Assembly: GCF_964340395.1 (NCBI RefSeq)
Contig: NC_135555.1
Location: 26,872,725 to 26,936,724 of the forward strand
From: Glandiceps talaboti
Lineage: Eukaryota; Hemichordata; Enteropneusta; Spengelidae
Reading direction: 5' to 3'
DNA: 64,000 bases
Shown: piece by piece, positions 3,246 through 62,275 of the stretch
How positions within the stretch are numbered: position 1 is the stretch's first letter
Layout: each line of letters begins with the position of its first letter
The notes under the pieces: generated by a model
Database searches by the model: none
What the model was told of the DNA's origin: nothing
What the model saw: only the letters and a program-made list of their open reading frames with translations
Program-made: the position numbers and the translations under genes

Positions 3246-3306
3246 TGTATGCATAGCAGTACAGCTACTACTAGTAGAAATGTATGCATAGTAGTAGTAG
3301 TAGTAG

Positions 3307-3342
<36 letters not shown>

Positions 3343-3793: not shown

Positions 3794-3820
3794 TTTGATG
3801 AACAGGACTGGTCAGAGGTA

Positions 3821-4669: not shown

Positions 4670-4715
4670 ATGCAAAACGAAATCCAGTAATATTGTTCTG
4701 AATGTTGATAATGGT

Positions 4716-5968: not shown

Positions 5969-6023
5969 TTCAGTGTCATTTCGACTATGCCTGTTCATCG
6001 TGGTATAGGGTCTCACAAAGAAG

Positions 6024-6449
6024 TTGAAGGGTAGACTACAAGTTCTGCAAAATAACATCATAAGATACATACTTAGTGCTGCTCCTAGAACACACATTGG
6101 ATATAATCAATTTAAACTTGTAGGCATGTTTCCTGTAGAATTGAGGGTTGAGCAATTAAAACTCAATCATATGTTCAACATCATAACTCATTGTGCTCCT
6201 GAGTACTTAAATTGCAATATAGAAATGGTCCGTAATCGGCACAGTTATAGAACAAGAGCGAGTGAACTGTCATGTGTAGTTCCAAGAGTCAGTGGTATGG
6301 GTAAGAGTTCATTCGCCTACACAGGCATTGGTCTTTGGAATAGTCTCCCACTCTCAGTGAAACAATCTCATACAAAACATAGTTTTAAAAACCATGTCAA
6401 ATCTTTTTTATGGAACAAATTAGAGGTTAAAGAACATAATATTTTGTAA
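6024..6449 (+). pseudogene. non-LTR ORF2 C-terminal domain
   Basis: The terminal part of the same ORF2, with LQVLQNNIIRYILSAAPRTH, IGYNQFKLVGMFPVELRVEQ and the closing GIGLWNSLPLSVKQ / FKNHVKSFLW motif typical of CR1/L2/Jockey-like proteins. It ends at a natural stop. It is in a different frame from the preceding YADD segment. Confidence 0.88.
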
Positions 6450-6773
6450 CTTTTTAGTCCTTCCTTTTTAAATTGAGGGTGTAGTCTGTGTATTTTATAA
6501 TTTTTTTTGTGCTCTGTCATTTGTATTTCATTTATTTTTTTTATATTTTGTTTGTTTGTTTGTTTGTTTGTTTGTTTGTTTGTTTGTTTGTTTGTTTGTT
6601 TGTTGTTGTTGTGTCATTGTTGCCATGGCGTTTTGAATACCCCTATGAGGACCACATTGGAAATAAGTGTTTTTAAAAAATACTTTTATGTGTTATCCTC
6701 GGTGATTTTTTATCCTTGTATTTTAATATGTACTTGTATAAATTTTTACCCAAATAAAATCATATCATATCAT

Positions 6774-22129: not shown

Positions 22130-22140
22130 AGCATCGGTGA
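21421..22140 (-). CDS. DIRS RNase H C-terminus and methyltransferase-like domain, shifted frame
   Basis: Downstream continuation of the RT ORF in another frame. It shows HLPGKRNGIADALSR, which carries the last RNase H Asp, then VDLFATFLNRKLPLFVSPVPD, DAMSFSW and LVAPLWPNRSWFP, which match the DAM-like methyltransferase region that follows RNase H in DIRS elements. The larger open frame that contains it reaches back to 23172, but the part upstream of about 22140 is a shadow of the RT frame. The shift from the RT frame falls at a run of six G (minus strand) near 22148. It overlaps the recombinase ORF over about 700 bp, as expected for DIRS. Confidence 0.85.
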   Translation of the reverse strand, partial: SPMLCYLTWDLMFWCKDRKITLRAQHLPGKRNGIADALSRCIQVRPTEWEIPQNVANQISIRWNKPVVDLFATFLNRKLPLFVSPVPDLRAMAVDAMSFSWEGLEAYAFLPLPLLPLVLRKIQEEKCVLSLVAPLWPNRSWFPVLLSLLIDLPCKLPQREDLLSQGWNILHPHPETFHLHAFRLSNNLSLQRDFLTRLPRSSQDPSMRVPLPLTGKSGRDSLVGVINDRLIHSKLLHNS

Positions 22141-23417
22141 CCTGGTCCCCCCATTTTGTTGATGTAAGCCACCACTGTTGTGTTGTCGGTATTGACTAGC
22201 ACACAGCGGTGTGACACCAGGTGTTCGAACTGGCGAAGAGCTAGAACAACTGCCTGCATTTCCAACCAGTTGATATGATGGAGGGTGGATGGTAGATCCC
22301 AAGTACCTGAGGTCCAGTGGTGGTCCATATGGGCTCCCCATCCCACCTTGGACGCGTCGGTAAAAAGGGAAATATCTGTTTTCCAACTCGACAATTGTTT
22401 TCCTTCCAACATTGCCTCTTTGTCCAACCACCATCGTAGGTGTGGAAAAAGGGGTGGTAGGATGGGAACCATAGACTCTGCTGATTGGATACTGGGGTGC
22501 CAGTGAGCCAACAGGTAGAGCTGAATTGGTCGCATTCTGAGGCGTGCCCATGGTGAAATGTCGATGATGGAATTCATCAAACCCACCAGGGACAGAAATA
22601 GTTTGGCTTGTATGCGGGTTTGTTTCGCTACAAGTCTTACCAGTACTACAATCTTGTCTACTCGCTCTTGCGGTGGACAGACTATTCCCTGTTTGGTCAT
22701 AAAACGCATCCCGATAAAAATCATGTCCTGAGTAGGAACTAGAATCGATTTGTCGGGACTCAAAAGGAATCCGAGAGACCTCAGAATAATCTGGGTGTCT
22801 TGAACAAAATGACGTAGCTGTTCGACTTTCTTGTAGTGTAGCAGCCAGCCGTCCAGATAAGGATTTAGTAGAAAACCGCACGCATGGAGAGTGGTCACCG
22901 GTGTGGAAACTACTCGAGTAAAGTCTCTCGGTGCTGTTGTGAGGCCGAACGGTAGTGCTACGTATTCGAACACTCGACCGTCGGTTGCAAAGCGGAGAAA
23001 GTGACGACACGACTCGTGAACGGGAATGTGGAAGTAGGCGTCCTTCAAATCTATGGATGCCATCCATTCGCCTGGCTGAATAGAGGCGAGGACGGATCGG
23101 CTTGTTTCCATCTTGAATCTGGGCACTCGCAGGTACTTGTTGAGAGTGGATAGATTCAGTATCGGACGCCATCCCCCCGACTTTTTTGGAACCAGGAAAA
23201 AGTGGCTGTAAAAGCCAGGTCCCGATGACTGGGCATCGATTTCCCTTATTGCGTTTTGGCCTATTAGGCAGTCGATAGCTTCCAGAAATGCCGTTCGTTG
23301 ACTGGCCAGTCTTGGAACTGGAGTAACGAACGGTACGACCGAAAGAGGGGGATCGCGTACGAAAGATAGGCGGTAACCCTCTCTTAAATCCATTCGTCTG
23401 ACGTAATGCATTCCCAA
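22119..23417 (-). CDS. DIRS reverse transcriptase/RNase H (YLDG active site)
   Basis: A 432-codon frame with RT motifs PKKSGGWRPILNLSTLNKYL, SIDLKDAYFHIPVHE (first catalytic Asp), LPFGLTTAPRDFTRV and NPYLDGWLLHY. The last is the catalytic box. DIRS and related RTs have YLDD or HLDD there, so residue 190 (codon 22848-22850, GGC) replaces an essential Asp by Gly, one base from GAC. RNase H follows with SLFTDASKVGWGAHM, INWLEMQAVVLAL and VLVNTDNTTVVAYINKM, holding three of the acidic residues. The frame ends just after, at a G-run where it should pass into the methyltransferase-like frame. The RT of this copy is probably inactive, though the rest is well kept. Confidence 0.93.
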   Translation of the reverse strand: MGMHYVRRMDLREGYRLSFVRDPPLSVVPFVTPVPRLASQRTAFLEAIDCLIGQNAIREIDAQSSGPGFYSHFFLVPKKSGGWRPILNLSTLNKYLRVPRFKMETSRSVLASIQPGEWMASIDLKDAYFHIPVHESCRHFLRFATDGRVFEYVALPFGLTTAPRDFTRVVSTPVTTLHACGFLLNPYLDGWLLHYKKVEQLRHFVQDTQIILRSLGFLLSPDKSILVPTQDMIFIGMRFMTKQGIVCPPQERVDKIVVLVRLVAKQTRIQAKLFLSLVGLMNSIIDISPWARLRMRPIQLYLLAHWHPSIQSAESMVPILPPLFPHLRWWLDKEAMLEGKQLSSWKTDISLFTDASKVGWGAHMDHHWTSGTWDLPSTLHHINWLEMQAVVLALRQFEHLVSHRCVLVNTDNTTVVAYINKMGGPGHRCYVI

Positions 23418-23440
23418 TGTTTTGCGTATAAACCTATACG

Positions 23441-23456
23441 CCCCCCCCCCCCCCCC
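23441..23456. repeat. C16 homopolymer in the DIRS gag-RT junction
   Basis: Sixteen consecutive C on the plus strand (G on the coding strand) between the gag stop at 23502 and the RT start at 23417. Its length sets which upstream frame connects to RT, and it is a likely site of both replication slippage and sequencing error. Confidence 0.9.
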
Positions 23457-23501
23457 ACTGGACCGCTGTCTGTGGGGTTCACGGCCCTGTCGGGAAGGAA
23501 G

Positions 23502-24611
23502 TCAGGAGAACTGCTGACGACTTCCTGACCCCTGTGTTTGATTGGTCGAGGAAGTGGACGGCTTACCCGGCTGACTCGAGCGTCTAGTGTTCGCAGCCTG
23601 AACCTGTTTGGGTTTACGGGTGCGTTTCTTACTCTGACTTCGACGCTTGTATCCACTAGTTTGCGGTTGCTGTCTTGTAGTCGGAGTAAACGTAGACGCT
23701 TTAGGCATAGCAGTGGCCTGGAATTGAGGGGGTTTTGTAAATTTTGCATCCCTCTCAGTTGCGGTCGGAACTTGCTTAGCCATCTCGCTCAGCGAGCCCC
23801 CAAATAAAAATCTAGAATTGCTCGTCTTGCTAGCCCTAGCTTCTAGTTTTAGTTCGGGGGTGTATTTCGGTGCTAGTTGCTCAAGGAAGGCATCACGTTC
23901 TGACAAAATGAGCGATGCCCGCTGACGTAATGACGAGTCTGTGAGATCAGTCACACTCGTCGCTACTGCGCGAAAAAGAAGGAGGAGTTTGCTCTGCGTG
24001 TCTGACACAGGACCACTCTTAGTCAACTCAATCGCTGTGGCGATAAACCAGTCCAGGTGTGATAGAATGCGTATGTTCTTAGACAACGATTCACCCACGG
24101 ACCTCACGAAGGAGCGAGAAACCATATAAGATTTGAAAGCAGTATAGTTGTCGTCAACTAACCTTGCTTCCTTCTCCAACGTTGGATACCCTAGCCATTG
24201 TTCAGATGTATGAACCTGGTAAGACTTCGACCTGGATTTGAACCATGGGAAACGACCCGGTGGAAGGGGATCCCTGTCGTTCATACCTGCCAGTTCGTTC
24301 TCAATTTGTGCTTGTCGAGACGAGACTGAATCGGCCCAAGGAAGAGACGTAGTAGGGTAAGATGACACTCGCGACTCCTCCCCCAGCGACTGAAACATTC
24401 GGGATTCAAGCGGTTTGGGTGGAGCCGGCCGTTTACAGTCGGGAAACTGCTCGTAAATCCATGAAATTACCTCTTCATAGGTCACTTCATCACTAGTAGT
24501 GGCCGCTGACGGACAGCGACTGGCTGCCTCGACTGATATTTCAGAACGGGATTCCATGTCGCTAAAATCATCATCACCTGTGGAGACCTGTGTCCTTCCT
24601 GAGTTAAACAA
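23502..24611 (-). CDS. DIRS gag-like ORF, second part
   Basis: A 369-codon frame beginning in an acidic segment (STGDDDFSDMESRSEISVEA), with TYEEVISWIYEQFPDCKRP and a helical middle (YTAFKSYMVSRSFVRSVGES, LLLLFRAVATSVTDLTDSSL). It ends in a basic tail (KRRSQSKKRTRKPKQVQ) likely to bind nucleic acid. This matches the layout of DIRS/Ngaro gag-like proteins, which lack retroviral capsid signatures. It overlaps the first gag frame by 130 bp in another frame. Either one frameshift mutation split a single gag, or the two are separate ORFs; the sequence alone does not decide. Confidence 0.75.
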   Translation of the reverse strand: MFNSGRTQVSTGDDDFSDMESRSEISVEAASRCPSAATTSDEVTYEEVISWIYEQFPDCKRPAPPKPLESRMFQSLGEESRVSSYPTTSLPWADSVSSRQAQIENELAGMNDRDPLPPGRFPWFKSRSKSYQVHTSEQWLGYPTLEKEARLVDDNYTAFKSYMVSRSFVRSVGESLSKNIRILSHLDWFIATAIELTKSGPVSDTQSKLLLLFRAVATSVTDLTDSSLRQRASLILSERDAFLEQLAPKYTPELKLEARASKTSNSRFLFGGSLSEMAKQVPTATERDAKFTKPPQFQATAMPKASTFTPTTRQQPQTSGYKRRSQSKKRTRKPKQVQAANTRRSSQPGKPSTSSTNQTQGSGSRQQFS

Positions 24612-25693
24612 TCAAAACGATCTGGAAGGTCTCTATGCGGGGAGCATGACCGATCACCGTGTCTTGACCCTGAGATGGAATGATCGGATGATGACGCTCT
24701 ATCCTGAGTAGTAGACCTACTACTGGAACGAGACGGCCGAGAGGGTGAAGGTTGACTTCCTGCTTCGGCCTCCTGGTTCCCCTGGGGGTGGGGGCTCATT
24801 GTCACTAGGCCCGGTGTGGGGTTAGTAACAGGTGGAGTCCGCCCTTGAAAACCATGTTGAATGGTTTGCTGCCAGGCATTGGGAACACTGGGTACCATAG
24901 AGGGTGCTGTTCCCTGTGGTAAATAGGGTACTGCTCCCTGTGGTAAAAAGGCAGTGTTCCCAGTCATCTGTGGATGAACCCCTGTATACTGATGGAAATA
25001 CTGAGGGTTTGTCACAGAAAACTGATTATAAGGAACGTAGGAGTGTCCCCAAGGAGAGAAATAAACTCCAGGTTGTACTCCTGTTTGGTCGATCACAGAA
25101 TTGATGGGTGTCCGGTATCTGGACTGCCCCCTCGAATTTGCCGCCTGTGGTAAATTACTACGTACCGCAGCAGTGGTTTGACCTTGACCAAAGGAAATGT
25201 CCCTGACCTCCGTAGTGGGGATACGTTCTGCCTCTCCCTGAACGATCGTATTTTTGACCTGTCCGTCATTGGGCTGGGAACACCAAGGGAGGTAATATGG
25301 ATCCCATCTATCGGGTTCTGCGGAGCATAAATCCCTCTGTGGGTTCGACCGGGATGGTGCGGCGACAACCGCAGGCACTCTAGGATCCCTAATGGAGGTA
25401 AAACTGTCGCCTTGAAAAAGGCAGTTTTCCTGAAAAGGAGAAACGGACTTACCTTCTTTGGAAGTACTTACCGTAGAGGAAGTCTGCTCGACTAGCATAG
25501 ACGTGCGTTGAGGGATGACGTCATTGATCTCGCTAAGTCTTTCTGAAAACTTTTTCCACTGACAATCGGTCCAGTTACTGTAGAAATCGCATTTCTGGTC
25601 GGGCCGACAGGATCTGCAGTCCGCACAAAGATCATGGCCATCTCCCGCAACGATTGGGTGGCCACACTTACTTACGGGAGACTGATCCGACAT
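24482..25693 (-). CDS. DIRS gag-like ORF, first part
   Basis: A 403-codon frame starting about 410 bp inside the element. The N-terminus has a Cys/His-rich segment (CGHPIVAGDGHDLCADC-RSC, then KCDFYSNWTDCQW) that may fold around zinc. A long low-complexity Pro/Gln/Ser-rich region and a Ser/Arg-rich end (RPSRSSSRSTTQDRASSSDH) follow. It has no enzyme motifs. The start is chosen as the first ATG after the terminal repeat that opens the longest frame. The tail after about 24600 is probably out of frame with respect to the original gag. Confidence 0.75.
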   Translation of the reverse strand: MSDQSPVSKCGHPIVAGDGHDLCADCRSCRPDQKCDFYSNWTDCQWKKFSERLSEINDVIPQRTSMLVEQTSSTVSTSKEGKSVSPFQENCLFQGDSFTSIRDPRVPAVVAAPSRSNPQRDLCSAEPDRWDPYYLPWCSQPNDGQVKNTIVQGEAERIPTTEVRDISFGQGQTTAAVRSNLPQAANSRGQSRYRTPINSVIDQTGVQPGVYFSPWGHSYVPYNQFSVTNPQYFHQYTGVHPQMTGNTAFLPQGAVPYLPQGTAPSMVPSVPNAWQQTIQHGFQGRTPPVTNPTPGLVTMSPHPQGNQEAEAGSQPSPSRPSRSSSRSTTQDRASSSDHSISGSRHGDRSCSPHRDLPDRFDCLTQEGHRSPQVMMILATWNPVLKYQSRQPVAVRQRPLLVMK

Positions 25694-25946
25694 TGTGAAG
25701 GAAGTTCAAATGCTAAAAAAAAATATACAAGTACAACAATGGCGCCCGATTTACCAAATGAGGCGCCAACGAACTTGAGAAAAATAAGGTGTCCACGAAA
25801 CGTAGACGCAACACACGAGAATAAAAAGGAACGACTTAGCTGGAATCCTGAGGTATTCAGCGAAGTGTCCACCGCTTATTAGGAGATAACTCATGTCAAT
25901 TTTGGCACAAGAGTCCTTTAGCTATTCTACGCAATTCGTCGATTTG

Positions 25947-28757: not shown

Positions 28758-31662
28758 CTGTCTACAGTACTGGATCTATCACTGTACTACAATGTAGTTC
28801 TCATCTATTATCCCAGCCTGTCTACAGCACTGGATCTATCACTATAGTAGTTCTCATCTACTATCCCAGCCTGTCTATAGCACTGGATCTATCACTATGC
28901 TAGCTCTCATCTATTATCCCAGCCTGTCTATAGCAATGGATCTATCACTATGGTAGTTCTCATCTACTATCCCAGCCTGTCTATAGCACTGGATCTATCA
29001 CTATGGTAGTTCTCATCTACTATCCTAGCCTGTCTATAGCAATGGATCTATCACTATGGTAGTTCTCATCTACTATCCCAGCCTGTCTATAGCACTGGAT
29101 CTATCACTATGGTAGTTCTCATCTACTATCCCAGCCTGTCTATAGCACTGGATCTATCACTATGGTAGTTCTCATCTACTATCCCAGCCTGTCTATAGCA
29201 CTGGATCTATCACTATGGTAGTTCTCATCTACTATCCCAGCCTGTCTACAGCACTGGATCTATCACTATGGTAGTTCTCATCTACTATCCCAGCCTGTCT
29301 ATAGCACTGGATCTATCACTATGGTAGTTCTCATCTACTATCCCAGCCTGTCTATAGCACTGGATCTATCACTATGGTAGTTCTCATCTACTATCCTAGC
29401 CTGTCTATAGCACTGGATCTATCACTATGGTAGTTCTCATCTACTATCCTAGCCTGTCTATAGCACTGGATCTATCACTACAGTAGTTCTCATCTACTAT
29501 CCCAGCCTGTCTACAGCACTGGATCTATCACTATGGTAGTTCTCATCTACTATCCCAGCCTGTCTATAGCACTGGATCTATCACTGTGCTAGTTCTCATC
29601 TACTATCCCAGCCTGTCTATAGCACTGGATCTATCACTACAGTAGTTCTCATCTACTATCCCAGCCTGTCTACAGCAATGGATCTATCACTATGGTAGTT
29701 CTCATCTACTATCCCAGCCTGTCTACAGCAATGGATCTATCACTATGGTAGTTCTCATCTACTATCCCAGCCTGTCTACAGCACTGGATCTATCACTACA
29801 GTAGTTCTCATCTACTATCCCAGCCTGTCTACAGCAATGGATCTATCACTATGGTAGTTCTCATCTACTATCCCAGCCTGTCTACAGCACTGGATCTATC
29901 ACTATGGTAGTTCTCATCTACTATCCTAGCCTGTCTATAGCACTGGATCTATCACTACAGTAGTTCTCATCTACTATCCCAGCCTGTCTACAGCAATGGA
30001 TCTATCACTATGGTAGTTCTCATCTACTATCCTAGCCTGTCTATAGCAATGGATCTATCACTATGGTAGTTCTCATCTACTATCCTAGCCTGTCTACAGC
30101 AATGGATCTATCACTATGGTAGTTCTCATCTACTATCCTAGCCTGTCTATAGCAATGGATCTATCACTACAGTAGTTCTCATCTACTATCCTAGCCTGTC
30201 TACAGCAATGGATCTATCACTATGGTAGTTCTCATCTACTATCCTAGCCTGTCTATAGCACTGGATCTATCACTACAGTAGTTCTCATCTACTATCCTAG
30301 CCTGTCTACAGCAATGGATCTATCACTATGGTAGTTCTCATCTACTATCCCAGCCTGTCTATAGCACTGGATCTATCACTATGGTAGCTCTCATCTATTA
30401 TCCTAGCCTGTCTATAGCACTGGATCTATCACTATGGTAGTTCTCATCTACTATCCCAGCCTGTCTACAGCAATGGATCTATCACTATGCTAGCTCTCAT
30501 CTATTATCCCAGCCTGTCTATAGCACTGGATCTATCACTATGGTAGTTCTCATCTACTATCCCAGCCTGTCTATAGCACTGGATCTATCACTATGCTAGT
30601 TCTCATCTACTATCCCAGCCTGTCTACAGCAATGGATCTATCACTATGGTAGTTCTCATCTACTATCCCAGCCTGTCTACAGCACTGGATCTATCACTAC
30701 AGTAGATCTCATCTACTATCCCAGCCTGTCTATAGCACTGGATCTATCACTATGGTAGCTCTCATCTATTATCCCAGCCTGTCTATAGCACTGGATCTAT
30801 CACTATGGTAGTTCTCATCTACTATCCCAGCCTGTCTACATTGTATAGCACTGGATCTATCACTACAGTAGTTCTCATCTACTATCCTAGCCTGTCTATA
30901 GCACTGGATCTATCACTATGGTAGTTCTCATCTACTATCCCAGCCTGTCTATAGCACTGGATCTATCACTATGGTAGTTCTCATCTACTATCCCAGCCTG
31001 TCTACATTGTATAGCACTGGATCTATCACTACAGCAGTTCTCATCTATTATCCCAGCCTGTCTATAGCACTGGATCTATCACTATGGTAGTTCTCATCTA
31101 CTATCCCAGCCTGTCTATAGCACTGGATCTATCACTATGGTAGTTCTCATCTACTATCCTAGCCTGTCTATAGCACTGGATCTATCACTATGGTAGTTCT
31201 CATCTATTATCCCAGCCTGTCTACAGCACTGGATCTATCACTATGGTAGTTCTCATCTACTATCCTAGCCTGTCTATAGCAATGGATCTATCACTATGGT
31301 AGTTCTCATCTACTATCCCAGCCTGTCTATAGCACTGGATCTATCACTATGGTAGTTCTCATCTACTATCCTAGCCTGTCTATAGCACTGGATCTATCAC
31401 TATGGTAGTTCTCATCTACTATCCTAGCCTGTCTATAGCAATGGATCTATCACTATGGTAGTTCTCATCTATTATCCCAGCCTGTCTATAGCACTGGATC
31501 TATCACTATGGTAGTTCTCATCTACTATCCTAGCCTGTCTATAGCAATGGATCTATCACTATGGTAGTTCTCATCTACTATCCTAGCCTGTCTATAGCAC
31601 TGGATCTATCACTGTGCTAGTTCTCATCTACTATCCTAGCCTGTCTACAGCACTGGATCTAC
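28758..31662. repeat. 53-bp minisatellite, about 55 copies
   Basis: Units such as GGATCTATCACTATGGTAGT plus TCTCATCTACTATCCCAGCC and TGTCTATAGCACT. Variation is confined to a few sites (TATGG/TACAG/TATGC; CCCAG/CCTAG; ATAGCA/ACAGCA; CT/AT). It starts about 137 bp from the acceptor of exon 28410-28620 and ends exactly where an F3 element begins. All lies in the 7.9-kb intron. It has no open frames of note. Confidence 0.97.
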
Positions 31663-36739: not shown

Positions 36740-36756
36740 CTGATGGTAAGATTTAC

Positions 36757-38262
36757 AGTCATAGTTTATATTTTAATGATGTCATAGTTTATATCTTAAT
36801 GATATCATAGTTTATATTTTAATGATGTCATAGTTTATATCTTAATGATGTCATAGTTTATATTTCAATATCATAGTTTATAGTTTAATGATGTCATAGT
36901 TTATAGTTTAATGTCATAGTTTATATTTCAATGATATCATAGTTTATAGTTTAATGATGTCATAGTTTATGGTTTGTAGTTAAATGATGTCATACTTTAT
37001 ATTTTAATGATGTCATAGTTTATATTTTAATGTCAGTTTATATTTTAATGATATCATAGTTTATATTTTATTGATGTCATAGTTTATAGTTTAATGTCAT
37101 TGTTTATATTTTAATGTCATAGTTTATAGTTTAATGATATCATAGTTTATATTTTAATGATGTCATAGTTTATATTTTAATGATGTCATAGTTTATAGTT
37201 TAATGATGTCATAGTTTATAGTTTAATGATGTCATAGTTTATAGTTTAATGATGTCATAGTTTATAGCTTAATGATGTCATAGTTTATAGTTTAATGATG
37301 TCATAGTTTATAGTTTAATGATGTCATAGTTTATAGTTTAATGATGTCATAGTTTATAGCTTAATGATGTCATAGTTTATATTTTAATGTCAGTTTATAT
37401 TTTAATATCATAGTTTATATTTTATTGATGTCATAGTTTATAGTTTAATGTCATTGTTTATATTTTAATGTCATAGTTTATAGTTTAATGATATCATAGT
37501 TTATAGTTTAATGATGTCATAGTTTATATTTTAATGATGTCATAGTTTATAGTTTAATGATGTCATAGTTTATAGTTTAATGATGTCATAGTTTATAGTT
37601 TAATGTCATAGTTTATAGTTTAATGATGTCATAGTTTATAGTTTAATGATGTCATAGTTTATATTTTAATGATGTCATAGTTTATATTTTAATGTCATAG
37701 TTTATAGTTTAATGATATCATAGTTTATAGTTTAATGATGTCATAGTTTATAGTTTAATGATGTCATAGTTTATAGTTTAATGATGTCATAGTTTATAGT
37801 TTAATGATGTCATAGTTTATATTTTAATGTCATAGTTTATAGTTTAATGATGTCATTGTTTATATTTTAATGTCATAGTTTATAGTTTAATGTCATAGTT
37901 TATAGTTTAATGATGTCATTGTTTATATTTTAATGTCATAGTTTATATTTTAATGATGTCATAGTTTATAGTTTAATGATGTCATAGTTTATAGTTTAAT
38001 GTCATTGTTCATATTTTAATGTCATAGTTTATAGTTTAATTAGTTTAATGATATCGTAGTTTATAGTTTAATGATGTCATAGTTTATATTTTAATGATGT
38101 CATAGTTTATAGTTTAATGATGTCATAGTTTATAGTTTAATGTCATAGTTTATATTTTAATGTCATAGTTTATAGTTTAATGTCATAGTTTATAGTTTAA
38201 TGTCATAGTTTATAGTTTAATGTCATAGTTTATATTTTAATGATGTCATTGTTTATAGTTTA
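36757..38262. repeat. AT-rich 23/20/17-bp minisatellite
   Basis: Units of TGATGTCATAGTTTATAGTT plus TAA, with shorter units lacking TGA or GATG, about 65 copies. It begins within 18 bp of the acceptor of exon 36561-36739 and fills most of the 2.2-kb intron up to the F4 fragment. Confidence 0.97.
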
Positions 38263-39184: not shown

Positions 39185-39357
39185 AATATATATTATCAAC
39201 TTAACATGAAATGCATCTAAGACATAAACTGTGTAAACTTCGCTGATATCAACTTAACATGAAATGCATCTAAGACATAAACTGTGCAAAACTTCGCTGA
39301 TATCAACTTAACATGAAATGCATCCAAGACATAAACTGTGTAAACTTCGCTGTTACT
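39185..39357. repeat. three copies of a ~53-bp repeat beside a CTNNBL1 acceptor
   Basis: ATATCAACTTAACATGAAAT followed by GCATCTAAGACATAAACTGT and an AACTTCGCTG end, three times with few changes, about 27 bp upstream of exon 38980-39158. The stretch 39358-39604 holds nothing recognisable. Confidence 0.9.
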
Positions 39358-40194: not shown

Positions 40195-40655
40195 GTAAAT
40201 ATAATGCACAACTGTACAGTTTTTAAAAATGTCTATCCACATGGTTAGCCATGCTAGGTATAGGTGTTCATTTGCTAAATGACTATCTAGTTGCCTTGCC
40301 AACCCTGTTGTTATCTTTGCGATATACATGATTATTTGGCTGTTGCTATGGGCATGGTGTTGCTAGGCACATTTACATACATTTTTTGAATGTTTACGCA
40401 TTTGTCTATTAATTCTTGCTGTTATCCTTGCAATATATGTGATCATTTGGCTGTTGCCATGGGCGTGGTCTTGTTGCTAGGCATATTTGCATATACTTTT
40501 TGAATGGTTGTTCACTCGTCTAAGAATCCATGTTGTTAGATTTGTGAAATACACAATTGTTTGGCTGTTGCTATGGGTGTGATCATGGTTGCTAGGGATA
40601 TTTGCATACATTTTTGAATCTATACCTTATCGGTTCAGTTGTGCTAACAAAATGC
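40195..40655 (+). mobile_element. F1 element, short copy
   Basis: Starts near the F1 5' signature (GCACAACTGTACAGTTTTTA) and has about three ~115-bp monomers with TTTGGCTGTTGCTATGGGC and TTGCTAGGCA. It ends at a CGGTTCAGTTGTGCTAACAAA tail without the middle part. 39894-40194 holds nothing else recognisable. Confidence 0.75.
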
Positions 40656-43454: not shown

Positions 43455-44978
43455 TTTAATTTTCAAAAAAATACTGCCAATGGCATTGTAGCACAACTGT
43501 ACAGTTGTTTATCCATATGCTAGTCCATGCTAACAATAGGTGTTCATTTGCTGACTCCAGTTGCCTATCCAACCATGTTGCTATCTTTGCGATATACGAC
43601 GTGATCATTTGGCTGTTGCTATGGGCGTGGTCATGTTGCTAGATATATTTGCATATATTTTTTGAATGTTTTTGTTCACCTGTGTATGAATTCCTGATAT
43701 TATCTTTGCAATATACGTGATCAGTTGGCTGTTGCTATGGGCGTGGTCTTGTTGCCAGGCAAATTTACATATATTTGTTGAATATTTATTCAATTGCCTA
43801 TTAATCCCCATTGTTATCTTCGCAATATATGTGATCATTTGGCTGTTGCTATGGGCGTGGTCTTGTTGCTAGGCACATTTGCATACATTTTTGAATGTAT
43901 ATTCATTTGTCTTCCAATTCCTGTTATATCTTTGCGATATAAGTGACTATTTGGCTGTTGCTATGGGTGTGGTCATGTTGCTAGATATATTTGCATACAT
44001 TTTTAAATGTTTTTGTTCACTTGTGTATGAATTCCTGATATTATCTTTGCGATATACGTGATTATTTGGTTGTTGCTATGGACATGGTCATGTTGCTAGG
44101 TAAATTTACATACATTTTTGAATGATTATTCAATAGTCTATTAATCTCTTGTTATCTTCGCAATATATGTGATTGTTTGGCTGTTGCTATGGGCATGTCT
44201 TGTTGCTAGGCACATTTGCATACAGTTTTTGAATGTGATGATGATGAATGATTATTCAATGGTCTATTAATCTCTTGTTATCTTCGCAATATATGTGATT
44301 GTTTGGCTGTTGCTATGGGCATGTCTTGTTGCTAGGCACATTTGCATACAGTTTTTGAATGTTTCTTAAATTGTCTTTCAATTCCTGTTACCTTCGCAAT
44401 ATACATGATCATTTGGCTGTTGCCAGGGGCGTGGTCTTGTTGCTAGGCAAATTTACTTACATTTTTCTAATGTTAATTATCTATTAATCCCTGTTATATT
44501 TGTGAAATACATGACCGTTTGGCTGTTACTATGGGCATGGTCATGGTTGCTAGGGATATTTGCATACATTTTTTAAATGTTTACTCACTTGCCTACCAGA
44601 AGATGTTATTTAACCAAAATATACTGCCATTTTGTTGTTGCTAAGGGCGTGGTCATTGACAAAGTACTTTTTGAGATATAAGTTTTTGACCAAAAATGAA
44701 CATTTTTACACCTAATTTGCATATCACTCATGGAATCATTGTATGCTTAATATTTCTTTGTCCATACATCCCTAGATGCATTCCCATTGAATTTCAGCCC
44801 AATCTATTCTGTGGTTTTGGAATTATAGATTTTTGACCAAAAATCACATTTTTTGACCCGAATCACAAACCGGTGGTAACATCATTTTGATTTGAACAAT
44901 TTCCCAACTAGACACCCAAGGTAATGGACCTGCCAAATATCATGGCTATCGGTTCAGCAGTTTTTGACTTTAAGTTGT

Positions 44979-45097: not shown

Positions 45098-46129
45098 TAT
45101 ACCAGTTTGTACTTGGACCAAGAATGTCAAATAATAACATTTGTCTAGTCTTAAAGTTTATTGTACACTATACAGTCAATCAGTCCTTTGATAAAAAAAG
45201 ACAGAATGCATCATGAAATAAGATCAGTCTACCTGAAAGTATTCAGAGATTGACAGCTGGAAGTCAAAATTTCTGGAAATGTTTCACCTCAAGGAAAGCT
45301 CCATGCTGTAACCAATTTTAACGGTTATTTAACTAGACCCAGTGTATAGCTTTTATTTATAATGTTTTATTCTTTTGGTCAAAGTCTATGTACGCACTAT
45401 TATCATTATTGCTTTGTTTTTTACATAATGTTTGTCGTTTTTGTATGTTTCAAAGCATACATTTCAGTTTCTCCCAATGAGAGTAAAATGTATTGTATGA
45501 TGAGGTAGTTAAAAAAATATCTCTTTAGCTTTAGCAGTAAAAAAAAAATAGTGCCAATGGCGTTGTAGTACAACTGTACAGTTTTTAAAAATGTTTGCCC
45601 ATACGCTGATCCATGCTGGGTATACATAGGTATTCATTTGCTGAATGATTATCCATACATCATTGAATGTTTATTCATTTGTCTATTTATCCCTGTTATC
45701 TTTGCAATATGTGTGATCACTTGGCTGTTGCTATGGGCGTGGTCTTGATGCTGGGCACATTTGCATACATTTTTTTGATTGGTTATTCATTTGTCTATCA
45801 ATACCTATTGTTATCTTTGCAATATATGTGATTATTTGGTTGTTGCTATAGGCGTGGTCTTGTTGCTAGGCAAATTACATACATTTTAAAAATGTTTATT
45901 CAATTGTCTATTCATCCCCATGGTTATCTTTGTGAAATACACCACCAATTGGCTGTTGCTATGGGCATGGTCTTGTTGCTAGGCAAATTTACATACATTT
46001 TTGGAATGTTCATTCAATTATCTATTAATCCCTGTTGTTATCTTTGCAAAATATCTGATCATTTGGCTGTTGCGTTGGGCGTGGTCTTGTTGCTAGGCAT
46101 ATTTGCATACATTTTTTGAATGCTTAATT

Positions 46130-47262
46130 CAGTGTTCTCCCTTGAGGGTTTTCAGGTATTGGGCCCGATATCCTTTAATTTTCGCCGATACGCTATCAGT
46201 TGTCCCAATACGCTATCAGATTGCTTAGGGTTTGGTAAATATTGTTCATCTGTCAATCGGTCAGCTGATGCCTTTGTTGTTTTCAATGTATACTTGCAAC
46301 CTTTGTATTGATCCTTCACACATAAGCGGCAAGTAAAACTAAAGAGTTTCTAATTAGTTCAAATGACTATTCAACCCTCTACCACTACCCAGACAGATTT
46401 CATTCATGCCATCAGTATTATTTTCAATAGGAATAACCTGCGTAAACCCGCTAATGGTAGTGTGATTCACACTATGGTACAGGCTTTCGGTAAATCAAAC
46501 GCAAAACCAGCCTATCTGTAACGTCGGTGCCATTTTGCTATAATAAAGTATGAAAGTTCGACAAACACATGACTTTGGCATTCAGTGTCTCATTCGAGTA
46601 TGTCTCAACCCAAGAGCGATTTGTGTAGTTGGTTTACTCCCATGTCGTGAAATGAGTTGAACAGACTAATACAATGTACAATGTACAATGTACCTTTCGA
46701 TAAAGTGGCGATGTTATCTCCGATTATCAGTTTCATGTTCAATTTTACTCCGAAAACACTTTTTGTTTGTAGTTAGACATTGTAGACTGGTACATCGTAC
46801 GACTAAGATCATGACGATGAGAGCATGGATTTTCCAATATGACGGCCATGACGTCACAAACTATCACAAGTTTTTGAAGTCCTCCATAGGGAAGTATAGT
46901 AATTCTCGTGTATCACAAAATTTCAGACTAACACGATGTCTGCAGGTAGCTAGCTGTACACAAACCTTTCATGTTTTGAAAGTCTAATTTATCTGTGGAC
47001 ATTTAGATTGAAATGATTTCAGCTTTCCTAAGAATAATAATAATAAAAAACACAGGTTTTAAAAAAACTGTTATGAGTTTCTTATTGGTGCTAATATTTT
47101 GTAGTAATAAATTGGCCTTCAACTTTCCTTTGGCCACATAATACATGTACCACTTGTTTGATATAATGATGTACATTGATTTTATCATTAAGTTACTCAA
47201 GAATATAATTATTTTGTCATGTAAATTTATGCTAATGAGCCAATATCCTGGGGAGAACACTG
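46130..47262. mobile_element. hAT-like non-autonomous element
   Basis: Inverted ends CAGTGTTCTCCC at 46130 and its complement ending at 47262, the CAGTG-type end common in hAT elements. The flanks (GCTTAATT left, CTTATTCA right) resemble a mutated 8-bp duplication. No transposase frame is recognised in the 1.1 kb. Confidence 0.7.
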
Positions 47263-53381: not shown

Positions 53382-53530
53382 CTTAACATAAGATTCATCA
53401 GTTGAAGTCCTTCTCCTTGCAGGAATTTAGCTCTGTTTGACATAAACATCAAAGCTGAACACAAACAGTTGAACAGATTCTCCATCATTTCAAATTCTTC
53501 ATTTGATGATGGATCATGTCGTTTAAAGGC
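53382..53530 (-). CDS. CTNNBL1 exon (FKRHDPSSNEEFEMMENLF)
   Basis: A 149-bp exon with acceptor CTTGGACAG and donor GTAATT. It starts in phase 0 and encodes AFKRHDPSSNEEFEMMENLF, NCLCSALMFMSNRAKFLQGE and GLQLMNLML plus two bases of Arg. Human CTNNBL1 has VFKRHNPSTAEEQEMMENLF and FLKGEGLQLMNLML. This belongs to the armadillo-like superhelix. Confidence 0.96.
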
Positions 53531-53565
53531 CTGTCCAAGAATTAAAAATGCAGAAAAACACATTA

Positions 53566-55322
53566 ATTGTGATGTTACAATACACTACACATGTGGTATG
53601 GTGCTTGTGATGTTACAGTACTCTACACATATGGTATGGTGCTTGTGATGTCACCGAAAATGCCACATGTGGTATGGTGCATGTGATGTCACAGTAAACT
53701 CCACATGTGGTATGGTGCATGTGATGTTACAATACACTACACATGTGGTATGGTGCTTGTGATGTTACAGTAAACTACACATGTGGAATGTTGCTTGTGA
53801 TGTTACAATACACTGCACATGTGGTGCATGTGCTTGTGATGTCACAGTAAACTACACATGTGGTGTAAGGTGCATGTGATGTCACAGTAAACTCCACATG
53901 TGGTATGGTGCATGTGATGTTACAGTACACTACACATGTGGTGCATGTGCTTTTGATGTCACAGAATATGACACATGTGGTATGGTGCATGTGATGTTAC
54001 TGTACACTACACATGTGGTATGGTGCATGTGATGTCACAGTAAACTCCACATGTGGTATGGTGCATGTGATGTTACAGTAAACTACACATGTGGTATGGT
54101 GCATGTGATGTTACAATACACTACACATGTGGTATGGTGCATGTGTTGTTACAGTTAACTACACATGTGGTATGGTGCATGTGATGTTACAATACACTAC
54201 ACATGTGGTATGGTGCATGTGTTGTTACAGTTAACTACACATGTGGTATGGTGCATGTGATGTCACAGTAAACTACACATGTGGTATGGTGCATGTGATG
54301 TTACAGTAAACTACACATGTGGTATGGTGCTTGTGATGTTACAATACACTACACATGTGGTATGGTGCTTGTGATGTTACAATACACTACACATGTGGTA
54401 TGGTGCTTGTGATGTTACAGTACAATACACATGTGGTATGGTGCATGTGATGTTACTGTACACTACACATGTGGTATGGTGCATGTGATGTCACAGTAAA
54501 CTACACATGTGGTATGGTGCACGTGATGTCACAGTAAACTACACATGAGGTATGGTGCATGTGATGTCACAGTACGATACACATGTGGTATGGTGCATGT
54601 GATGTCACAGTACAATACATATGTGGTATGGTGCATGTGATGTTACAATACACTACACATGTGGTATGGTGCATGTGATGTCACAGTAAACGTCACATGT
54701 GGTATGGTGCATGTGATGTCACAGTAAACTACACATGTGGTATGGTGCATGTGATGTTACAATACACTACACATGTGGTATGGTGCATGTGATGTTACAG
54801 TAAACGTCACATGCGGTATGGTGCTTGTGATGTCACAGTAAACGTCACATGTGGTATGGTGCATGTGATGTCACAGTAAACTACACATGTGGTATGGTGC
54901 ATGTGATGTTACAATACACTACACATGTGGTATGGTGCATGTGATGTCACAGTAAACGTCACATGCGGTATGGTGCTTGTGATGTCACAGTACAATACAC
55001 GTGGTATGGTGCATGTTATGTTACAATACACTACACATGTGGTATGGTGCATGTGATGTTAAGTAAACGTCACATGTGGTATGGTGCGTGTGATGTTACA
55101 GTAAACTACACATGTGGTATGGTGCATGTGATGTTACAGTAAACTCCACATGTGGTATGGTGCTTGTGATGTTACTGTACACTACGTATGTGGTATGGTG
55201 CATGTGATGTTACAGTAAACTCCACATGTGGTATGGTGCATGTGATGTTACAGTAAACTACACATGTGGTGTATGGTGCTTGTGATGTTACTGTACACTA
55301 CATACGTGGTATGGTGCATGTT
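53566..55322. repeat. 38-bp minisatellite, about 46 copies
   Basis: Units ACACATGTGGTATGGTGCAT and GTGATGTTACAGTAAACT with variants (TTAC/TCAC, CAGTAAAC/CAATACAC, CATG/CTTG). The first unit lies about 35 bp upstream of exon 53382-53530, so branch point and pyrimidine tract fall at the edge of the array. Non-coding. Confidence 0.97.
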
Positions 55323-55680
55323 TATGGAACAGATGTCAATAAGCTTAAGTGTGGTAATACACATCTTTAATGAAATCAATATCCCAATTTAGGGTTTAGG
55401 TGAAAAAATGATCACTAACCAAGAGTGAGATCTATATATTTTTATGAAATCAAAGCAAACATTTTCCTTGGAAAATACATCACTTCAGTCAATGAAATGG
55501 ACATGTATAAAAATCTAATCTCTTTCCACTAGAAGGAAATATTTCTCATGAAGTTTAAACACTTGCTTTGTCATTGTGTCTTGACAAAGATGATTGATGG
55601 CTAAATCTCACAGATTTTGACAACTATGGACACACTTTCTGTGCATATTTTCATTAATAATGGACACCATTATTAACGTA
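55323..55680. other. no recognisable feature
   Basis: A/T-rich intron sequence between the 38-bp array and the 55.7-58.7 kb nest. No gene or repeat seen. Confidence 0.5.
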
Positions 55681-55779
55681 TATAGTCTGGTTCCAATTTC
55701 AGAAAATGTGAACGCTGTAGGCATTTTGGACTAAATACTGGAAGGCAACTTTTTGGGGTAATTTGATGGTGCTGATTCA

Positions 55780-57036
55780 AAAAAAATACCACCAATGGCA
55801 TTGTAGCACAACTGTACAGTTTTTAAAAATATTTATCCATATGCTAGTACATGCTAAGAATAGGTGTTCATTTGCTGAATCCAGTTGCCTATCCAACCAC
55901 GTTTGCGATATACAACGTGATCATTTGGCTGTTGCTATGGGCGTGGTCATGTTGCTAGATATATTTGCATATATTTTTTAATGTTTTTGTTCACCTGTGT
56001 ATGAATTCCTGATATTATCTTTGCAATATACGTGATTATTTGGCTGTTGCTAAGGGCATGGTCTTGTTGCTAGGCAAATTTACATATATTTTTTAATATT
56101 TATTCAATTGTCTATTAATCCCTATTGTTATCTTCGCAATAAATGTGATCATTTGGTTGTTGCTATGGGCATGGTCTTGTTGCTAGGCACATTTACATAC
56201 ATTTTTAATATATTTGTCTTTCAATTCCTGTTATTTTTGCAATATACATGGTTATTTGGCAGTTGTAGTGTGGTCTTGTTGCTAGGCAAATTTACATACA
56301 TTTCTTGAATGTTTGTTCAATTGTCTATTAATCCCTGTTACCTTTGTGAAATACACCACCATTTGGCGGGTGCTGGTTGCTAGGGATATTTGCATACATT
56401 TTTTGAATGTTTACACACTTGCCTATCAGATGATATTGTTATTTAACCAAAATATACTGCCATTTGGTTGTTGCTCATAGCGTGGTCATGGTTGCTAGGG
56501 CAAATTGTGTCAAAATATTTGAAGATCTGCAGAATAACAATTCCAGAAACATCTCACCTAGTTTTAGTCTCATTGACTAAGTACTTTTTGCGATGTACAT
56601 TTTTAAAACCAAAATTCACATTTTAACACATAATTTGCATATTGCTGATGAGATCATTATATGCTTCACATTTCTTCATCTATACACCCACAGATGCGTC
56701 CCTATTAAATTTCAGCTGCTGAGTAGTTTTGGAATTATAGGTTTTTGACTAAAAATACACATTGTTAGCCCTAATTTGCATATTACTGAGGTAATCATAA
56801 TGTCATGAACAAATCTTAATTTACTCACCCCTAAGAATGTTCCCACCAAATTCCATGCCAATCTGCCCAGTGATTTTGGAGTTTAAGTTTTTTGACCAAA
56901 AATCACATATTTTGACCTAAAACCCACATATCTGATTCAATCATTTTCATTTGAACAATTTCCCAACTAGACACCAGAAGTAACATGACCACCAAATATC
57001 AAAGCAATCGGTCAAGCAGTTTTTGGCTTTAAGTTG

Positions 57037-57117
<81 letters not shown>

Positions 57118-57165
57118 ACAGACACACACACACACACATACACACACACACATACAGAAGGACAC

Positions 57166-57200
<35 letters not shown>

Positions 57201-57250
57201 CTGCACCATGCCTATTGCACCACTGAGCCTTATCAATTCAGTTGTGTTAA
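55780..57250 (+). mobile_element. F1 element, near complete
   Basis: 5' ATACCACCAATGGCATTGTAGC, about six ~115-bp monomers, ~150-bp monomers with TAATTTGCATATTGCTGATG, a tail with AACAATTTCCCAACTAGACA, a long (CA)n then (GACA)n (57040-57200), and the hairpin ending CAGTTGTGTTAAAAA. Confidence 0.88.
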
Positions 57251-58340
57251 AAATCGCTCTTCTTTTTCAACATCGCTCTTCTGTTTAAAAAATCGCTCTT
57301 CTGTTTAGACATCACTTTTCTGTTTGAAAATCACTCCTGGGGACCTCGTTAGTTTCTCTGGATCTGACACCAAAGAGAGTTGACCATACTTTTTCTACTG
57401 TTCTCAACACTACGTTTCTAATGGTACTTCGTTGTGAAGTTTATTCTCCGTATCTGTGTTATTGTCTACCATACTTCTTTTGTCACCTGATAATTTTATT
57501 ATTATCATTTCAGATGTATCGTTATCACTGCTTGTTTTGTCTGTTGATAATGTGTCATTCAGTGAGGCCATATTAATTTTGTTGATGTTGTACTATAATA
57601 GTGGTTGCATTGATAAAATTAAGAGTTTGAATATTGTCGGTTTCTCTTGTTCTCAAAAATGAACATTTTGAATAAACACAAACAAACCCACATCCCACTG
57701 CTGCCACCAATGTGAAGTTCCATAGTTTCTATTGTGGGATTATGGCAAATAAACAAGACATAATTAACAAAGTTAATGCTCAGCACACCAAATGATATGA
57801 GAACACAAGAAATGAAGTGAAAAGTCAATAAACAAATATTTATTAACTCTGAAATCAAATTGACAATAATAAGAATAATATGCTGTATGATAAAAGGAAA
57901 AGGGGGTGGGGGCGTCTACTGTAAGGGCAAGAGGGATAATATTTACTCAACACACTAGTCAAGTGTCTATCATAGGGAATAAGTTCACACTGGCCCAATG
58001 ACACACAGGTCAGGGCTATCGTCTACTACGTACAGAGTCCAGACTTAGGACCCAAGCTAAGATTCTTCCAGGGACAATAAAAATAAGGGAAGATGATTTG
58101 TGTACAATTTAGCATGCAAACCAAAAGTATGGACCAAAATCTTAGTGTGCTAAACTGAGAAAGCCTTTGGCAAGAAAAGGGGGGACTGCTCATCGAGCTG
58201 TGGTAAACATGGGTTATTTATACCCTACAGGTGGATCCCATTTTGAAACAGAAAAGCAATGTTGAAACAGAAGAGTGATTTTTCAAACAGAAGAGCAAGT
58301 TTTCAAACAGCCATTGATAATACAAACAGAAGAGCGATTT
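57251..58340. mobile_element. TIR element with multiple subterminal AATCGCTCTTCTGTTT repeats
   Basis: The left end has four direct copies of (A)ATCGCTCTTCTGTTT-like units (57251-57345). The right end has four in inverted orientation (AAACAGAAGAGCGATTT, about 58238-58340). The middle includes no recognisable transposase. Arrays of subterminal repeats like these usually bind a transposase, but the superfamily is unknown. Confidence 0.7.
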
Positions 58341-58856
58341 GTCGCTTTTTTGGCCACAGTAACATAGGAAAAACTGTGCACAAAATATCAAAGATTCAAC
58401 ATGGCCACTGTATTGAATTCTCCCCATGATGATACATTGCTCACAACATGTATCTTACTTGATCAGAAGTTGGGAAAAAGGCATCGTGATGGCTTTATTA
58501 AAGTATTTTTACTCAATGATGTTTCTTTCTAGCTAATTTTAATACAAAAAGTCAAATATACGCAAATGTATGCAAATTTGACAGGTAAGATCTCAAAATT
58601 TCACTTTGAAGGCATGTTTTTTTAATTGACCACCATAAAATTACTATATAAAGTAAAGTTGCCTTCCAACTTCTACCTAAAAAATGCCTACAAGACAATT
58701 TTCCAGCGACTTTTTCTGGTATTAGAACTATAGTATGATACTATAATTATAGTAAATTATAGATAGGTGATATGTGAATATAGTTAAATAAGCATGTAAT
58801 TATAGTAAATTATAGAACAGGTGATATGTGAATGCATGAATGCAGTGAGAAATATA
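58341..58856. other. no recognisable gene; end of the nest
   Basis: Contains the right inverted repeat of the 55.7-58.7 kb element and two copies of an ATAGTAAATTATAGA motif. Nothing else is supported. Confidence 0.5.
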
Positions 58857-61490
58857 GAATCATATGACACTACTTACTACTAGTTGTTGTAGTAAAGAAT
58901 CATATGACAGTACTTACTGCTAGTTGTTGTAGTAAAGAATCATATGACAGTACTTACTACTAGTTGTTGTAGTAAAGAATCATATGACAGTACTTACTAC
59001 TAGTTGTTGTAGTAAAGAATCATATGACAGTACTTACTACTAGTTGTTGTAGTAAAGAATCATATGACAGTACATACTACTAGTTGTTGTAGTAAAGAAT
59101 CATATGACAGTACTTACTACTAGTTGTTGTAGTAAAGAATCATATGACAGTACTTACTACTAGTTGTTGTAGTAAAGAATCATATGACACTACTTACTGC
59201 TAGTTGTTGTAGTAAAGAATCATATGACACTACTTACTACTAGTTGTTGTAGTAAAGAATCATATGACACTACTTACTACTAGTTGTTGTAGTAAAGAAT
59301 CATATGACAGTACTTACTACTAGTTGTTGTAGTAAAGAATCATATGACACTACTTACTGCTAGTTGTTGTAGTAAAGAATCATATGACACTACTTACTAC
59401 TAGTTGTTGTAGTAAAGAATCATATGACAGTACTTACTACTAGTTGTTGTAGTAAAGAATCATATGACAGTACTTACTACTAGTTGTTGTAGTAAAGAAT
59501 CACATGACAGTACTTACTACTAGTTGTTGTAGTAAAGAATCATATGACAGTACTTACTGCTAGTTGTTGTAGTAAAGTATCATATGACACTACTTACTAC
59601 TAGTTGTTGTAGTAAAGAATCATATGACACTACTTACTGCTAGTTGTTGTAGTAAAGAATCACATGACAGTACTTACTGCTAGTTGTTGTAGTAAAGAAT
59701 CATATGACAGTACTTACTGCTAGTTGTTGTAGTAAAGAATCATATGACAGTACTTACTACTAGTTGTTGTAGTAAAGTATATGACACTACTTACTACTAG
59801 TTGTTGTAGTAAAGAATCATATGACAGTACTTACTGCTAGTTGTTGTAGTAAAGAATCATATGACAGTACTTACTACTAGTTGTTGTAGTAAAGAATCAT
59901 ATGACAGTACTTACTGCTAGTTGTTGTAGTAAAGTATCATATGACACTACTTACTACTAGTTGTTGTAGTAAAGAATCATATGACACTACTTACTGCTAG
60001 TTGTTGTAGTAAAGAATCACATGACAGTACTTACTGCTAGTTGTTGTAGTAAAGTATCATATGACAGTACTTACTGCTAGTTGTTGTAGTAAAGAATCAT
60101 ATGACACTACTTACTGGTAGTTGTTGTAGTAAAGAATCATATGACACTACTTACTACTAGTTGTTGTAGTAAAGAATCATATGACAGTACTTACTACTAG
60201 TTGTTGTAGTAAAGAATCATGACAGTACTTACTACTAGTTGTTGTAGTAAAGAATCATATGACAGTACTTACTACTAGTTTTTGTAGTAAAGAATCATAT
60301 GACAGTACTTACTGCTAGTTGTTGTAGTAAAGAATCATATGACACTACTTACTACTAGTTTTTGTAGTAAAGAATCATATGACAGTACTTACTACTAGTT
60401 GTTGTAGTAAAGAATCATATGACAGTACTTACTACTAGTTGTTGTAGTAAAGAATCATGACAGTACTTACTACTAGTTGTTGTAGTAAAGAATCATATGA
60501 CAGTACTTACTACTAGTTGTTGTAGTAAAGAATCATATGACAGTACTTACTACTAGTTGTTGTTGTAGTAAAGAATCATATGACACTACTTACTACTAGT
60601 TGTTGTAGTAAAGAATCATGACACTACTTACTACTAGTTGTTGTAGTAAAGAATCATATGACACTACTTACTACTAGTTGTTGTAGTAAAGAATCATATG
60701 ACACTACTTACTACTAGTTGTTGTAGTAAAGAATCATATGACACTACTTACTACTAGTTGTTGTAGTAAAGAATCATATGACAGTACTTACTACTAGTTG
60801 TTGTAGTAAAGAATCATATGACACTACTTACTGCTAGTTGTTGTAGTAAAGAATCATATGACAGTACTTACTGCTAGTTGTTGTAGTAAAGAATCATATG
60901 ACAGTACTTACTACTAGTTGTTGTAGTAAAGAATCATATGACAGTACTTACTGCTAGTTGTTGTAGTAAAGTATCATATGACACTACTTACTACTAGTTG
61001 TTGTAGTAAAGAATCATATGACACTACTTACTGCTAGTTGTTGTAGTAAAGAATCATATGACAGTACTTACTGCTAGTTGTTGTAGTAAAGAATCATATG
61101 ACAGTACTTACTACTAGTTGTTGTAGTAAAGAATCATATGACAGTACTTACTGCTAGTTGTTGTAGTAAAGTATCATATGACACTACTTACTACTAGTTG
61201 TTGTAGTAAAGCATCATATGACACTACTTACTACTAGTTGTTGTAGTAAAGAATCATATGACACTACTTACTGCTAGTTGTTGTAGTAAAGAATCACATG
61301 ACAGTACTTACTGCTAGTTGTTGTAGTAAAGTATCATATGACAGTACTTACTGCTAGTTGTTGTAGTAAAGAATCATATGACAGTACTTACTACTAGTTG
61401 TTGTAGTAAAGAATCACATGACAGTACTTACTGCTAGTTGTTGTAGTAAAGTATCATATGACAGTACTTACTGCTAGTTGTTGGAGTAAA
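58857..61490 (-). repeat. 40-bp minisatellite made of a CTNNBL1 5' splice site, about 65 copies
   Basis: Read on the gene's strand, each 40-bp unit is ACTTTACTACAACAACTAG(C/T)A, which copies the last 21 bases of exon 61472-61530, followed by GTAAGTA(C/G)TGTCATATGAT, which copies the first bases of the intron. The copy nearest the exon is the exon end itself. Units differ mainly at GCA/GTA before the donor, ACTG/AGTG after it, and GATAC/GATTC. The exon-proximal units are those most like the exon (GCA, GATAC). The GTAAGT donor is kept in virtually every unit, and some units lack 2 bp elsewhere. No open frame. Confidence 0.96.
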
Positions 61491-61530
61491 GTATCTATTC
61501 CATCTAATTCACCAAGAAGTTCTCGGTTTT
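61472..61530 (-). CDS. CTNNBL1 exon whose 3' end starts the 40-bp array
   Basis: A 59-bp exon with acceptor ATTGTTTTCAG and donor GTAAGT directly after GCA. The first two bases complete a Glu, then NRELLGELDGIDTLLQQLA. Human CTNNBL1 has ENRELLGELDGIDVLLQQLS followed by VFKR, so the join to exon 53382-53530 (AFKRHD) is exact and in phase. The exon copy has CTC where most array units have CTA; both code for Leu. The preceding exon is not in the window. Confidence 0.95.
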
Positions 61531-61920: not shown

Positions 61921-62275
61921 CAAAAATAGTGCCAATGGTGTTGTAGCACAACTGTACAGTTTTTAAAACTGTTTACCACATCCATACTAGGTATAGGTGT
62001 TCATTTGCTGAATGATTATCCAGTTGCCTATCCAACCCTGTTGTTATCTTTGCAATATATGTGATCATTTGGCTGTTGCTATGGGTGTGGTCTTGTTGCT
62101 AGGCACATTTACACACATTTTTTGAATGTTTATTCAGTTGTCTAATAATTCCTGTTACCTTTGCAATATACCTGATCATTTGGCTGTTGCTATGGGTGTG
62201 GTCTTGTTGCTAGGAATATTTGCAGACACCTTTTGAATGTTTGTTCACTTGTCTAAAGAATCCCTGTTATCTTAG
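61921..62275 (+). mobile_element. F1 element, 5' part
   Basis: ATAGTGCCAATGGTGTTGTAGC and ACAACTGTACAGTTTTTAAA, then two monomers with GGCTGTTGCTATGGGTGTGG; it stops without the 3' half. 62276-62865 holds nothing recognisable; a G-run lies near 62328-62339. Confidence 0.8.

Follow-up and report, generated by a model that had tools for sequence, protein, structure and literature searches.

A large donor-side mirage minisatellite in the CTNNBL1 gene of the hemichordate Glandiceps talaboti

Lancelet genes contain minisatellites built from exon-intron borders, which are called mirages. In the available parts of the sources they are described for Adh3, globins and troponin C and, in an imperfect form, for PGBD5. 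Among the globins, the accessible text of PMC3087553 names BflGb6, with six and three units in two haplotypes, and BflGb9. Citing Canestro 2002, the same text gives units of 10-72 bp and somatic instability for the Adh3 mirage. It also states that mirages are seemingly no hindrance to regular splicing, proposes intron gain from such repeats and discusses intron gain via tandem genomic duplication. For Adh and troponin C, the lancelet mirages reportedly give rise to no aberrant mRNAs. In the human gene IFI6/6-16 (G1P3), two downstream repeat units of a minisatellite serve as splice donors, according to the available portion of PMC4526556 citing Turri 1995. Repeats at exon-intron boundaries have also been described in human duplicated genes, where they can form novel introns (PMC2812944, available in part).

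Glandiceps talaboti is a hemichordate of the family Spengelidae. The window, that is, the whole stretch of 64,000 nucleotides analysed here, contains six exons of CTNNBL1 (A to F, Table 1), and the introns from A to F measure 7941, 14223, 2240, 7940 and 1591 bp. A first-pass annotation made from the letters had already named the gene as CTNNBL1, which was borne out by tblastn with the human protein. Joined together, the exons of the window encode 288 residues showing 100% identity over 100% of the length to Glandiceps talaboti beta-catenin-like protein 1 (NCBI). The next-best protein matches are those of Ptychodera flava (90%) and Saccoglossus kowalevskii (85%). Exon A codes for (E)NRELLGELDGIDTLLQQLA, corresponding to residues 275-294 of human CTNNBL1 (tblastn), and is flanked by ...ttgttttcag on its 5' side and gtaagtactgtc on its 3' side. 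The annotated protein in the database record runs ...LLQQLA-AFKRH..., which equals the join of the first donor after the exon (donor 1) to exon B; the protein record thereby implies donor 1 as the donor in use. Two minisatellites make up 4369 bp of intron A-B, counting the array described below to 58857.

Table 1. Coordinates of the features discussed, numbered from the first letter of the window.
Feature	Coordinates	Strand	Details and basis
CTNNBL1 exon A	61472..61530	-	59 nt; source of the unit's exonic 24 nt; tblastn with human CTNNBL1, splice signals, annotated protein
True 5' splice site GTAAGT (donor 1)	61466..61471	-	donor 1-exon B join reproduces annotated protein
40-bp minisatellite, in register	58862..61495	-	66 units including the exon's own; 65 GTAAGT, 1 GTATGT
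Exonic GATACT	61490..61495	-	proposed left side of birth microhomology; sequence
Intronic GATTCT directly after last unit	58856..58861	-	proposed right side of birth microhomology; sequence
Intron A-B	53531..61471	-	7941 bp; two minisatellites, one near either end
38-bp minisatellite, intron A-B	53568..55321	-	46 copies; ends 37 bp before exon B; TRF
CTNNBL1 exon B	53382..53530	-	149 nt; tblastn, splice signals
Minisatellite upstream of exon C	39194-39352		ends 35 bp upstream; TRF
CTNNBL1 exon C	39158-38980	-	human CTNNBL1 match
23-bp minisatellite upstream of exon D	36758-38262		67.8 copies; ends 18 bp upstream; TRF
CTNNBL1 exon D	36739-36561	-	human CTNNBL1 match
Minisatellite upstream of exon E	28794-31661		ends 173 bp upstream; TRF
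CTNNBL1 exon E	28620-28410	-	human CTNNBL1 match
CTNNBL1 exon F	26818-26730	-	human CTNNBL1 match
Arrays of ~111-114 bp repeat	40309-40619, 43576-44595, 45663-46131, 55915-56346, 62042-62273		TRF

The array behind exon A was called by TRF with a period of 40, 66.2 copies and 95% matches (58856-61495). Units were counted by cutting the minus strand at every CTTTACT, the first of them being the exon's own end, besides which the array holds 65 copies. The length is 40 bp in 61 of the 66 units, 38 bp in three, 43 bp in one and 37 bp in one. Each unit spans the real exon-intron border, joining GATACTTTACTMCAACAACTAGCA (24 nt, the end of the exon) to GTAAGTACTGTCATAT (16 nt, the start of the intron). 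The same 40-bp unit had been given in the first-pass annotation as 21 exonic and 19 intronic bases; the unit stands, and the 21+19 division is a rotation of the 24+16 register. Its derivation from the border and its unbroken continuation into the exon hold as well. Copies match as many as 23 of the 24 exon letters on the same strand and adjoin the exon, the units starting at 61495 inside it, and chance is excluded as the source of this match. The roughly 65 donors announced behind the true one are 64 exact GTAAGT hexamers and one GTATGT (unit 61).

The copies are similar but not uniform. The 61 full-length units all agree at 31 of the 40 positions, and the main variants lie at -21 (A/T, 9/51, plus one G), -2 (C/T, 25/36), +8 (C/G, 38/23) and +15 (A/G, 56/5). 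At position -13 the exon has C and all 65 copies have A; in units 9, 14, 40 and 49 this is the sole difference from the 40-mer of the exon. The array consists of 19 distinct unit types arranged in runs that recur (units 12-16 equal units 38-42, and units 4-7 equal units 36-39), which shows later block turnover. A higher-order periodicity is not claimed, its best lag of 35 units (p = 0.006) having come from 36 lags tried. The expectation that exon-proximal units would be most like the exon failed: edit distance to the exon unit shows no significant correlation with position over the 65 copies (Spearman 0.08, p = 0.50), with means in six successive blocks of 2.6 (the first 10 copies, the lowest), 3.4, 3.8, 3.2, 3.0 and 3.3. 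The make-up of the array also bears on whether a short repeat was inflated during assembly. Long tandem arrays commonly cause such errors and this one is known from one assembly; however, 19 unit types, the odd lengths of 37, 38 and 43 bp and the interspersed block repeats resemble biology. In addition, the contig of the matching protein measures 28.1 Mb, which probably indicates a long-read assembly, by which 2.6 kb would be easily spanned. An artefact is therefore highly improbable.

The peptide DGIDTLLQQLA is common to the Glandiceps, Ptychodera and Saccoglossus proteins, and the human protein has DGIDVLLQQLS. Since this coding sequence is kept across species, the exon is ancestral and the array derives from it. 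At E < 0.05 the unit matches nothing else in the window, and an origin from another repeat there was rejected on this ground. The array was probably born by a tandem duplication across the border of exon A and its intron, probably between the 6-base near-repeats GATACT and GATTCT. GATT stands at the unit start in 51 of the 61 full-length units, as a first duplication with the intronic GATTCT on its right side would predict. Slippage or unequal exchange would then have expanded the array to about 65 copies.

The GTAAGT donors of the array are hardly distinguishable in computed pairing with U1. The duplex energy is near-equal over the 65 GTAAGT donors (-7.0 for 40 of them and -7.2 for 25); exons B to E have donors with energies of -5.6 to -10.1. 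Their consequences for the protein differ. The frame of exon A meets a TGA at the sixth intron codon, due to which all 64 downstream GTAAGT donors yield the same truncated product, ...LLQQLAVSTVI and a stop; only donor 1 leaves the frame open. As an identical stop follows from every copy, selection should disfavour all copies alike and favour donor 1. This donor lies 59 nt from the true 3' splice site; the distance grows by 40 nt at the first copy and by about 2600 nt at the last. Under exon definition, a donor is paired across the exon with a nearby 3' splice site, and the nearest donor is preferred. Donor 1, being close to the real 3' splice site, would form such a pair and become committed ahead of the copies; it is proposed that the spliceosome uses donor 1 because only 59 nt separate it from that site. 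From established knowledge, exon definition is most likely what chooses donor 1, and selection would maintain its use since the copies bring in a stop. The choice of donor, which had been called open, is partly answered in this way: the annotated protein points to donor 1, the other GTAAGT donors lead to one and the same stop, and splicing in lancelets is described as undisturbed in the available sources.

Variation within the units was also considered with respect to the donor hexamer. Rare variants, present in at most two copies, occupy 1 of 360 sites in GTAAGT and 5 of 2040 sites in the rest of the unit; with rates this alike and events this few, selection on the hexamer was rejected as a claim. 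There is no sign, among these few events, that the copies are either kept or purged as donors. The same rates bear on the idea that the array is a landing strip for U1, guarding a long intron against premature polyadenylation (telescripting). Such a role would suit an intron of 7.9 kb that opens with 65 GTAAGT sites, but the hexamer shows no special constraint (1/360 vs 5/2040, too few events for a strong test), and this role is extremely improbable. The reading preferred here, with a probability of roughly 75%, is a donor-side mirage, probably functionless in itself, behind a donor 1 that would be picked by exon definition and kept by selection.

CTNNBL1 is a spliceosome-associated protein. 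If its copy donors were used to an appreciable extent, the result would be a series of poison isoforms sharing one stop, which would lower or tune CTNNBL1. The near-equal U1 pairing of the 65 GTAAGT donors, 64 of which lead to the same early stop, would permit this, and repeat units of human IFI6 act as alternative donors in the account available. Reportedly, from Eperon 1993 and Hodson 2012, the intron-proximal site is preferred in vitro among several strong donors, which would favour the copies too. Against such use, the annotated protein points to donor 1, the lancelet Adh and troponin C mirages reportedly produce no aberrant transcripts in the sources as available, and use of the most distal donors would stretch the exon to about 2.6 kb, much longer than is usual for exon definition according to established knowledge. 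Regulation by poison isoforms is very unlikely.

The copies might also be silent for a structural reason, each donor being hidden in a local hairpin that the exon unit cannot form. According to the folding model, A(-13) pairs with T(-2) and thereby completes an 8-bp stem, UUUACUAC/GUAGUAAG, in which most of GUAAGU is covered. The true exon carries C at -13 and at -2. The predicted minimum free energy of the 40-mer is -4.7 kcal/mol for the exon; the two main copy types with T(-2), whose donor lies in the stem, reach -8.1 and -9.1 kcal/mol. Of 200 shuffles, 14 and 10 fold at least as well as these two copy types and 40 as well as the exon unit. In 160/120-nt windows donor 1 is predicted to be the most open of the 66 (opening cost of 2.7 kcal/mol, the median of the copies being 4.5), and a donor 1 given both changes in silico would cost 5.8 kcal/mol to open. 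However, its rank shifts from 1 of 66 at 160/120 to 44 at 80/60 and 6 at 240/160, and the accessibility ranking was dropped as not robust to window size. The observed stability was reached by 5-8% of random substitution sets for a single unit and by 4.5-11% for trimers. A copy with A(-13) alone folds like the exon unit (-4.7), and 25 of the 61 full-length units, the exon included, have C(-2) and thus an incomplete stem. Moreover, richness in hairpins may just make a unit more prone to expand as DNA; the folding score of the 35-bp array in the window is similar. The case for masking is weak and the mechanism itself unlikely, although the fixed C/A difference at -13 together with the predicted hairpin leaves room for active masking of some kind.

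The donor-side mirage of exon A is not the only array lying next to an exon of this gene. TRF arrays were found within 40 bp of four of the six exons, namely A (0), B (37), C (35) and D (18 bp). For exon E the nearest array lies at 107 bp and the nearest minisatellite at 173 bp, and for exon F at 230 and 1975 bp. When exons were placed randomly outside arrays, this proximity had p = 0.00005 and 0.0001 (15 and 14 minisatellites) and 0.0035 (all 42 arrays), the 40-bp limit having been set after the distances were known and for one gene. By circular shift, which allows exons to land within arrays, it was not significant (p 0.09, 0.09 and 0.38). The clustering is a lead which, if real, suggests something more than a single accident. 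The arrays at B, C and D could not be taken as further mirages: searching the window with their consensus units (E < 0.05) hit only the arrays themselves, leaving no evidence there of derivation from an exon. It is very unlikely that splice borders are birthplaces of minisatellites in this gene and that the A-13/T-2 pair folds the copies away while the real donor stays open. If true, near-identical donors would be sorted through RNA folding and not through sequence.

Several other repeats were observed. A scan of positions -15 to -50 before exon D gave four branch-point candidates (-20, -34, -38 and -43), each matching the pattern yTnAy at 3 of 4 positions; all four lie inside the last units of the 23-bp array (region 36740-36799), and the repeat may supply the branch point of exon D. 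One 35-bp unit occurs in two arrays, at 3245-3794 (12.1 copies) and 6773-14789 (227.1 copies; TRF). Between them, reading frames at 3794-6449 look reverse transcriptase-like by eye, and a 63-bp unit repeated 9.1 times at 4043-4615 lies in frame (21 residues per unit) within the open frame 3794-4669. Overlapping minus-strand frames at 20531-25705, in a stretch of higher G+C (45-51%), appear by eye retroelement-like, with a reverse transcriptase and a recombinase-like part. A dispersed repeat of ~111-114 bp (TTTGGCTGTTGCTATGGGC...) forms short tandem arrays in at least five places (TRF; Table 1).

With 64 exact GTAAGT copies of near-equal U1 pairing behind its one real donor, exon A constitutes a natural experiment on donor choice. 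It pits two splicing rules against each other, the intron-proximal preference that is said to hold among equal donors and exon definition. Since every copy leads to the same stop, the choice of donor can be read directly from RNA.

The array of Glandiceps has been compared with the known systems. The first-pass annotation was right that it is a real splice-site-derived array and overstated how unusual this is, lancelet mirages and human IFI6 being precedents in the available accounts. The repeat unit of IFI6 is 12 bp long. Both IFI6 and the present locus have tandem repeat units as potential splice donors; IFI6, as far as its description is available, uses two downstream units, whereas in Glandiceps donor 1 alone is implied. 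Intron gain by tandem duplication, as presented in the accessible text, likewise starts from a duplicated exon-intron border or proto-splice site. Unlike there, the Glandiceps copies lie inside an existing intron, and no new intron or exon has resulted. The closest likeness is with the mirages of lancelets. In the available descriptions these too are tandem duplications of an exon-intron border, which may lie at either end of the exon, and many of their units carry splice signals. The differences are the host, a hemichordate and not a cephalochordate, the size (65 copies compared with the six and three units given for the BflGb6 haplotypes) and the retention of GTAAGT in every unit but one, whereas in lancelets many units but not all are described as keeping the signal. 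The literature searched held no report of a mirage-type array in a hemichordate. A mirage is described by its structure, irrespective of host group, and for this reason the array is filed as one. It is a large and clean donor-side mirage, of a kind already known and new in its size and, within the literature searched, in its host phylum, by which mirage-type repeats extend from lancelets to a second deuterostome phylum.
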